This document shows, in pieces, positions 56,228 to 58,886 of a stretch of DNA of 64,000 nucleotides. Numbering within the stretch: position 1 is the first letter of the stretch; the number at the start of each line of letters is the position of its first letter. The notes below the pieces were generated by a model, which worked only from the letters and a program-made list of their open reading frames with translations, searched no databases and had not been told where the DNA came from. This stretch comes from Bacteroidota bacterium (lineage in GTDB: Bacteria > Bacteroidota > Bacteroidia > 2-12-FULL-35-15): positions 72,813 to 136,812 of the forward strand of contig JAFLBF010000008.1 of NCBI GenBank assembly GCA_017303895.1, written 5' to 3'. The position numbers and the translations under genes were made by a program.

Positions 56228-56902
56228 ATGCGTATCGATATCATTACTGTTTTACCACAATTGTTAGAAAGTCCTTTTCAGCATAGCATTCTTAAACGAG
56301 CTATCGATAAAGGCTTGGTGGAAGTGAACCTGATCAACCTGAGAGATTATTCTACCGACAAGCATAAAAATGTGGACGACTATGCTTTTGGTGGCGGAGC
56401 CGGAATGGTAATGGGAATTGAACCGATTGCTAATTGCATCAATGCGCTAAAGGCCGAACGCCAATACGATGAGATCATTTATACATCACCCGATGGTGAA
56501 ACATTGAATCAAAAGATCAGCAATCAACTTTCTACACTTAATAATATTATGATCTTATGCGGTCACTACAAAGGTGTGGATCAGCGGGTACGCGATCATT
56601 TTATTACAAAAGAGATCTCTATCGGTGATTATGTTTTGTCGGGAGGAGAATTGGCAGCAGCTGTTATTTGCGACAGTGTGATCCGTATCATTCCGGGAGC
56701 CATTTCCGATGAAACATCGGCACTGACCGATTCATTTCAGGATAATTTATTGGCACCACCTGTTTATACGCGTCCTGCGGATTATAACGGATGGAAAGTC
56801 CCTGAAATATTACTTTCTGGTCATGCAGAAAAGATCGACAACTGGAGACATGAACAAAGTTTGGAGCGTACTAAACAAAGAAGACCTGATCTGCTTAAGT
56901 AA
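56228..56902 (+). CDS. trmD: tRNA (guanine-N1)-methyltransferase
   Basis: A 224-residue SPOUT-class Trm[21 protein letters not shown] opens it, [27 protein letters not shown] about residue 38, [34 protein letters not shown] is the knotted SAM site about residue 112, and [34 protein letters not shown] closes it. It methylates G37 of tRNA. The frame is open 61 codons further upstream over bioA, but the family starts at this ATG. No rpsP/rimM/rplS operon is attached here. Confidence 0.94.
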
Positions 56903-56903
56903 G

Positions 56904-56932
56904 TTTAACCGCGAAGACGCAGAGACGCGAAG
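56904..56932. repeat. Left imperfect inverted repeat of the GxxExxY cassette
   Basis: The segment begins TTTAACCGCGAAGACGC directly after the trmD stop. Its first 25 bases match the reverse complement of 57429-57453 at 19 of 25 positions, framing the GxxExxY gene. Confidence 0.65.
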
Positions 56933-56933
56933 T

Positions 56934-56955
56934 TTTCATCGCTAAAGCGATGAAA
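56934..56955. terminator. Hairpin between trmD and the GxxExxY gene
   Basis: TTTCATCGC (56934-56942) pairs with GCGATGAAA (56947-56955), loop TAAA. It could end either of the two convergent genes. The flanking T or A tracts are weak. Confidence 0.5.
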
Positions 56956-56972
56956 CTGTAAATTTTAAAAAA

Positions 56973-57359
56973 TCAATAATTATTTACAAAACGTTTAATT
57001 CCATTCTTCACTAAAGGAACGTTGAAATTAACTAGAAAGCCAAGACGCTTATCAGTCAGTCGCAAATAGGATATCAGCTGAGCTTCAAAAACAGGTAAAA
57101 TAACTTCTGCCGATTTTAATTCAATAATGATCTCACTTTCTACGAGGATATCAATTTTGAATTCCTTTGACAATTCAAAGCCTTTGTATATTAAGGGGAT
57201 AACAACTTGATTTTGAGCTTTTACACCGCGCAGTTCAAACTCTTTCATCATGCATAACTCATAAACAGACTCCAACAAACCTGGCCCCATCTCGCGATGT
57301 ACACAAATACAAACATCCACTATTTGTTTAGAAATCTTATCAAATTCTTCTCTCGTCAT
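56973..57359 (-). CDS. GxxExxY family protein (PD-(D/E)xK nuclease fold)
   Basis: A 128-residue protein of the GxxExxY family (PDDEXK_3-type). The naming motif appears as GPGLLESVYE near residue 24. The putative nuclease core is KIDILVESEIIIELKSAE (Asp, then E-x-K) near residue 75, with ISYLRLTDKRLGFLVNFN after it. Whether it is an active nuclease is not known. ATG 57359 (MTREEF) is chosen over TTG 57377, which lies in a hairpin. The gene is enclosed by imperfect inverted repeats and inserted between trmD and hisS, suggesting a mobile or dispersed cassette. Confidence 0.85.
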   Translation of the reverse strand: MTREEFDKISKQIVDVCICVHREMGPGLLESVYELCMMKEFELRGVKAQNQVVIPLIYKGFELSKEFKIDILVESEIIIELKSAEVILPVFEAQLISYLRLTDKRLGFLVNFNVPLVKNGIKRFVNNY

Positions 57360-57367
57360 ACATTTTA

Positions 57368-57386
57368 AATTGTCCAAGGGACAATT
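57368..57386. repeat. Perfect 8-bp hairpin 5' of the GxxExxY start
   Basis: AATTGTCC (57368-57375) and GGACAATT (57379-57386) around AAG form a perfect short stem, 8 bases before the ATG at 57359 on the minus strand. It could influence translation. Confidence 0.5.
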
Positions 57387-57428
57387 CTAATTCGCGTCAA
57401 TTTTATACGTCTTGCTATGATTAGCTTG

Positions 57429-57455
57429 GTGCCTCTCCGCCTTTGCGGTGAAAAA
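57429..57455. repeat. Right imperfect inverted repeat of the GxxExxY cassette
   Basis: The segment ends TTTGCGGTGAAAAA directly against the hisS stop codon. Its reverse complement begins TTTTTCACCGCAAAGGCGG and aligns with the left copy at 56904. Confidence 0.65.
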
Positions 57456-58886
57456 TTACTTCAATCGTTCAATGATCTGATCGATCGTTAATTTTTCCTG
57501 TTCACCGGATGTCATGTTTTTGAAAGCTAATTGTCCGCTTTGCATTTCATCACCACCAACGATCACTACAAAAGGAACCTTTTTATCATCGGCATAACCC
57601 ATTTGCTTTTTCATTTTGGCATTGGCATCAGGATATACTTCGGCATTGATACCAGCTTTACGAACTCTTGATAACAGTGGCAAACAATAGGCTTGCTCTG
57701 CTTCCCCAAACGTTACGAATAATAATTTGGTGCTGGCTGTAACCGATTCAGGAAATAAATTCAATTCCAATAACACATCATAGATACGGTCGGCTCCAAA
57801 AGAGATACCGACTCCGCTCATATTCGGCAAACCAAAAATACCGGTAAGGTCATCATAGCGACCACCACCGGTGATACTGCTGGTAAATTCAGAACGGGAA
57901 TCGTTTACTTTCACTTCAAAGATAGCTCCGGTGTAATAGTTGAGACCGCGAGCAAGTGTAATATCCAATTCAACGTTTGCAGTTGATAGACCTGATGCTT
58001 CTACCGTTTTAAAAACATATTCCAGCTCTTCTATTCCTTTTAAACCAATTTCAGAACTCGCTAATAGGGATCTTAAGAAATTTAATTTTTCAGCGGTAGA
58101 ACCTGTAAATTCGATCAATGGCTGCAACTTCTGAATAGCTGCATCACTTACCCCATTCTCCTGCAATTCTTTGTTTACGCCATCTTTACCAATCTTATCC
58201 AATTTATCAATGGCAACAGTAATGGTAACGATCTTTTCTTTTTCTCCGATCACTTCTGCTATTCCACTCAAGATCTTCCTATTATTGATCTTGATCAGAA
58301 CACCTAATCCCAAAGCAGTGAATACATCATCCATCATTTGCACCAATTCCACTTCATTCAACAAGGAATTACTCCCGATCACATCGGCATCACATTGGTA
58401 AAATTCGCGGTAACGACCTTTTTGTGGCCTATCAGCACGCCATACCGGTTGGATCTGATAACGTTTGAATGGAAAAGAGATCTCATTCTGGTGTTGTACC
58501 ACATAACGCGCAAATGGAACGGTAAGGTCGTATCGAAGAGCTTTTTCAGAGATGATTTTCAATAAGGATTTCGATACGCTTTCTGTATCAAAGACATCTA
58601 TTCCATTTTCATTTCTCTTAGGGTAATTACCATTAAAAAGTTCTGATCCAGAAGAAATAGAATTCATAAAATCCCCACTATTCAAGATCTTAAATATCAA
58701 TTTATCTCCTTCATCCCCATACTTACCCATTAAGGTTGAAAGGTTCTCCATAGCAGGTGTTTCAATAGGCAAATAGCCATAACGTTGAAACGTTTTTTTG
58801 ATGGTATCAAATATATAGTTACGTCTCACCATTTCCTGTGGTGAAAAATCGCGGGTTCCTTTTGGTATGCTTGGTTTTTGTGCCAT
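57456..58886 (-). CDS. hisS: Histidyl-tRNA synthetase
   Basis: A 476-residue class II synthetase. [22 protein letters not shown] opens it; motif 2 is [31 protein letters not shown] about residues 140-172; the His-specific [16 protein letters not shown] and motif 3 [22 protein letters not shown] are present; an anticodon-binding domain covers the last about 100 residues. It charges tRNA-His. The TTG two codons upstream is ignored in favour of ATG 58886 ([10 protein letters not shown]). Length is normal. Confidence 0.95.

Follow-up and report, generated by a model that had tools for sequence, protein, structure and literature searches.

The trmD–hisS intergenic region of this Bacteroidota genome holds a small GxxExxY nuclease gene between inverted arms, and the whole unit appears to belong to a family of palindromic repeats as its gene-bearing form. 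By analogy with REPINs and their RAYT transposases, we propose a pairing of one constrained nuclease with its palindromes, built on a non-homologous enzyme that would cut the repeats and so help them to be copied; we give this reading a probability of about one half. GxxExxY loci combine inverted arms of a common grammar, arm words that match the nuclease lineage, populations of gene-less repeats that accompany the cognate nuclease, purifying selection on the protein, a bias towards sense orientation within operons, and empty sites in relatives.

In the window (the whole 64,000-nucleotide stretch of DNA that was analysed), the arms span the space from the trmD stop codon (TAA, 56900–56902) to that of hisS (57456–57458). 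The left arm (56904–56932, plus strand) starts 1 bp past the trmD stop, and the right arm (57425–57455, minus strand) abuts the hisS stop. Both are tandem arrays of 7–8-bp words with opposite reading on the two sides: CCGCGAAG ACGCAGAG ACGCGAAG on the left or, as three CGCRRAG words, TTTAACCGCGAAG ACGCAGAG ACGCGAAG, and on the right, in the minus-strand reading, TTTTTCACCGCAAAG GCGGAGAG GCACCAAG. A preliminary description of this DNA had reported imperfect inverted repeats framing the gene between trmD and hisS, and we recovered the match of 19 out of 25 bases between 56904–56928 and the reverse complement of 57429–57453; an equally good match arose in 1 of 400 random placements of the same span in the window. 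The nuclease gene (56973–57359, minus strand) encodes 128 amino acids from what is probably its start, the ATG at 57359, which we prefer because the longer mechanical open reading frame (ORF; TTG at 57377) would cross the hairpin 5′ of the gene. That 8-bp hairpin (AATTGTCC-AAG-GGACAATT, 57368–57386) lies directly 5′ of the start codon, and a perfect 10-bp hairpin (56934–56955) lies 3′ of the gene, immediately inside the left arm. Both hairpins, and the compactness of the arm-framed unit between the two stops, are as first described.

The protein had been assigned from its letters to a GxxExxY nuclease fold. Profile searches agree, placing it well over the curated cut-offs of TIGR04256 (135.5 bits against 35; E-value 1e-39) and PF13366, PDDEXK_3 (130.3 against 22; 6e-38). 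Among 38 divergent relatives, G21, Y27 and the PD-(D/E)xK residues D64, E74 and K76, the D...ExK set already recognized in the preliminary description, are invariant, and E24 is nearly so. An AlphaFold2 model (pLDDT 95.9) has a restriction-endonuclease-like fold. Among solved structures it comes closest to Cas4 SSO0001 (Z 9.6), with archaeal Hjc (Z 7.1) among the further matches, a likeness of a predicted fold that does not show function. A profile search of the sequences of solved structures found no relative of GxxExxY. The family was found in 36 of 36 genomes of the genus and in about half of the sampled genomes of the phylum. Its dN/dS (median 0.064, maximum 0.108) points to strong purifying selection and, at about 0.06, indicates a protein in use.

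Matched arms recur at GxxExxY loci far beyond the window. The 200 bp upstream of each gene were aligned locally to the reverse-complemented 200 bp on its downstream side, and among the 108 genes of the genus with enough flank (36 genomes), 91% scored at least 24 and 75% at least 32; L060 and L088 are the same element, a duplication removed only later, and both remain in this 108-gene test. Random control positions of the same span in the same loci reached these scores in 2% and 0%, and arms cross-paired from different elements in 12% and 4%. The matched proportion was 86% both in the phylum (n = 29) and in a scan of all phyla (n = 72), with controls at 1–2%; this bacterial-genome scan used an alignment of eight closer proteins, the 38 divergent ones being too variable. 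The common arm grammar is approximately C-R-C-N-R-A-G, and the spacing is 8 to 10. The window genome (G000) carries four GxxExxY genes, at all of which inverted arms are seen by eye, with four different words; one copy (L001) scores 23, marginally below the threshold of 24, and another (L004) has an internal stop and lies outside the scored set. Arms agree within an element and not between elements of this genome. Because a single genome holds several words, the 25-base ends of the preliminary description are not a fixed terminal repeat but word arrays, and we reject one universal end.

Each nuclease clade bears its own words. At loci without shared neighbours, protein identity correlated with arm similarity (Mantel r = 0.56, P = 0.001): strong arms were common to 60% of 95 pairs at 65–80% protein identity and to 0.5% of 2,225 pairs at 25–35%. 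Between non-syntenic elements, likeness was greatest in the arms (0.36), lower in the inner spacer (0.27) and lowest in the outer flanks (0.16). Arm sequence tracks nuclease phylogeny, even at unrelated loci.

These words also make up palindromes that contain no gene. Four word patterns matched 526 arms in the 36 genus genomes, and a reversed control pattern gave 0 matches in every genome. Only 37 of the 526 match exactly in the arms of sampled gene-bearing elements; this count covers the GxxExxY genes that were fetched, a part of the total, and a few further arms may belong to genes. Among 74 gene-less loci inspected, 48 are solo arms and 26 are complete hairpins with a median length of 130 bp. 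Scanning about 0.86 Mb for hairpins under stringent settings yielded few candidates, and gene-less elements were detected through the word patterns instead. One gene-less hairpin of the window's word family lies between two genes of the window genome (G000:C23:222113–222165, L006), and at locus L005 (about 1540–1610) a CAACCAACAA tandem repeat comes after a solo right arm.

Where the cognate nuclease is present, gene-less arms were commoner (P = 2e-4, 2e-3 and 5e-3; 9e-4 for the window's clade), and genomes with more GxxExxY genes had more arms (36 genomes; rho = 0.62, P = 5e-5). These are correlations between species of a single genus, uncorrected for phylogeny. G012 (L434–L445) is a clear exception: it has more than 100 gene-less arms, built from three words, and the fetched sequences include no nuclease cognate to them. 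G013 and G034 also have arms without a cognate gene. According to the preliminary description, repeats at unrelated places without any GxxExxY gene would refute a cassette. Such repeats do occur; since they are enriched alongside the cognate nuclease, it is the model that is altered, and the feature itself stands.

We suggest that GxxExxY most likely recognizes the word arrays cognate to it, whether they are present as duplex, cruciform or single-strand hairpin DNA, and would cut them, helping gene-less palindromes of the same words to copy or move at a low rate, a role akin to that of the RAYT transposase in the service of REPINs. The nuclease gene would stay at low copy under strong purifying selection, mostly where an upstream gene reads through, and its palindromes would spread over intergenic DNA. 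It is direct binding and cutting of the words by the nuclease, and the copying and movement that these would cause, that we infer. If nuclease and palindromes are a cognate pair, a single account covers a large uncharacterized gene family and abundant intergenic repeats, and the DNA specificity of each nuclease can be predicted, in a directly testable way, from its arm words. Matched GxxExxY loci occur in many other phyla beyond this one.

Gene-bearing and gene-less copies differ in their placement, according to counts that are approximate because ORFs came from a simple script. About 73–86% of gene-bearing units lie between tandem genes, with median gaps of 5–8 bp to the adjoining ORFs, and the gene there is in sense in all but 1 of 80 and all but 1 of 59 cases (137:2 in all), whereas gene-less palindromes are divided between 38 tandem and 33 non-tandem sites, accompanied by some 105 bp of further intergenic DNA. 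The 38:33 division is near the tandem share of intergenic base pairs in sampled chunks (58%), which speaks against the initial suggestion that the element targets gene ends; gene-less palindromes occupy intergenic DNA generally. Because the two kinds of copy contrast in this way, their placement argues that gene-bearing copies are held in operons by read-through expression, and it looks like selection for expression.

The main rival to a nuclease–palindrome pair is RNA processing like that of the intervening sequences (IVSs) of 23S rRNA, in which the arms would pair in the operon transcript with the gene in the loop, and the stem would be cut by an RNase or by GxxExxY. This reading, which we consider unlikely, would account for the sense orientation of GxxExxY genes inside operons. 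It also draws on the genes for S23, the four-helix-bundle protein of 23S IVSs: of 24 tested in this genus, 92% carry matched arms, and S23 genes are co-directional 21:0; their arm words (TTAGATTTGAGATGTGAGA and similar) differ from those of GxxExxY. Moreover, RNase III excises the Coxiella IVS, which has a terminal stem of 28 bp and carries tandem GACAGAT heptamers ahead of its S23 ORF (PMC4990558), an arrangement reminiscent of the word arrays of GxxExxY arms. However, mismatches between the arms show no sense-strand excess of G·U (64 versus 81, 82 versus 84 and 12 versus 20), and with this test null in all three sets we reject RNA pairing as the conserved property. The operon preference is absent from gene-less palindromes, and the arms retain clade-specific words, more than pairing alone needs. 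Separately, S23 (TIGR02436; L174–L203) is as common as GxxExxY in the 36-genome genus, with 19 genes in G026 and a different arm grammar, and many S23 genes lie at one shared junction ahead of an MNAYIVAGF start.

The preliminary description had read the unit as a mobile or parasitic cassette and had proposed a search for empty sites in relatives. In the window genome hisS adjoins trmD; in most relatives read, hisS is followed by hutH, and that junction is empty (0–15 bp) in some of them, occupied by a GxxExxY unit in five and by a gene-less hairpin in others. Gene-bearing sites are scattered over the HisS tree, three of them with a sister that has a gene-less hairpin, and other single junctions carry different GxxExxY clades in different species. 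In L041 and L061 the hisS–hutH junction holds GTCATTGCGAG-type palindromes instead, and it is therefore a general palindrome hotspot.

A selfish cassette, in which the gene-bearing unit would transpose or home into junctions and gene-less hairpins would be its deletion products, fits the scatter of empty and filled hisS junctions, the reuse of one junction by different clades, and the existence of same-clade elements at unrelated loci with common arms and non-matching outer flanks. We nevertheless regard it as rather improbable. Same-clade gene-bearing copies seldom duplicate in a genome: few close paralogues exist inside any one genome, and same-genome pairs make up 1.5% of pairs more than 60% identical versus 3.4% of all pairs. 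No target duplication was found at filled sites (direct-repeat score 10.78 for own and 10.83 for cross comparisons), although some insertion-sequence families make none. Constraint is strong at old shared sites, and gene-bearing units are far outnumbered by gene-less palindromes. With so few paralogues and so low a dN/dS, we find no support for a gene-bearing unit that spreads like an ordinary transposon, and the cassette reading of the preliminary description is only partly supported.

Low dN/dS, together with presence in every genome of the genus and about half of the phylum sample, would also suit a nuclease that serves its host in chromosome upkeep, gene regulation or defence, its arms being binding sites spread by ordinary duplication. 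Such a role seems doubtful as the main explanation, in that GxxExxY has no match among the known defence or phage families of PADLOC and PHROGs, is patchy by clade and by site, and is accompanied by very different words inside one genome. Finally, although Y1 genes occur in 29 of the 36 genomes, it is very improbable that resident Y1/RAYT transposases move the palindromes as ordinary REPs, GxxExxY being a passenger. We reject this reading because arm number does not track Y1 number (rho = 0.21, P = 0.22), 29 arms occur in G006 without any Y1 match there, and a GxxExxY-type word pair lies near the centre of 0 of 30 Y1 loci. The window genome also contains a Y1/RAYT-like gene (weak match; L490, G000:C23:86933–88137) among GCAGGTGATAACACCTGC inverted repeats, likely an ordinary RAYT/REP set with other words.

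Several known systems resemble the proposed nuclease–palindrome pair in part. With the 23S rRNA IVSs that encode S23 it shares a small sense ORF between inverted arms, a frame that the S23 genes of the genus have too. It differs in lying between trmD and hisS and not in rRNA (a check of GxxExxY loci for rRNA motifs gave one short match only), in its protein fold, and in having arms without a sign of conserved RNA pairing. More tentatively, and at less than even odds, PD-(D/E)xK GxxExxY and, separately, four-helix-bundle S23 may each recognize word arrays particular to their clades and act in trans to spread palindromes that have no gene; rRNA IVSs would then be a special case within a broader class of bacterial systems.

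Free-standing homing endonuclease genes are likewise small nuclease genes between host genes, with empty sites in relatives, but here gene-less palindromes coexist unconverted and the arms are repeated genome-wide. TnsA of Tn7 is also a PD-(D/E)xK nuclease, and ends such as those of Tn7 are inverted with tandem protein-binding words, as the putative binding words are here; the GxxExxY unit has no DDE transposase, no target duplication that we could find and no proliferation of its gene. From a classical insertion sequence it differs in lacking a target-site duplication or fixed terminal repeat. MITEs, as short gene-less palindromes that possibly need an enzyme in trans, match the gene-less copies, for which there is no parent DDE element.

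The closest parallel is with RAYT and REPINs, in which the enzyme gene is low-copy and constrained and many gene-less palindromes and solo arms exist, more of them where the enzyme is present (PMC8049555). GxxExxY shares a low-copy, constrained gene framed by the repeats that it would serve, and many gene-less cognate palindromes and solo arms that are more numerous where the enzyme occurs, with G012 as the exception. The open-access literature that was searched names the family and gives no account of GxxExxY function or its repeats; its one match to PF13366 is a paper on algal genomics. The unit is not a member of RAYT/REPIN, because its enzyme is unrelated, being PD-(D/E)xK by profile and model and not HUH/Y1; its arms are arrays of three to four words with several clades per genome, and its gene-bearing copies lie in sense within operons. 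It looks like an undescribed counterpart of REPIN/RAYT built on an unrelated enzyme.
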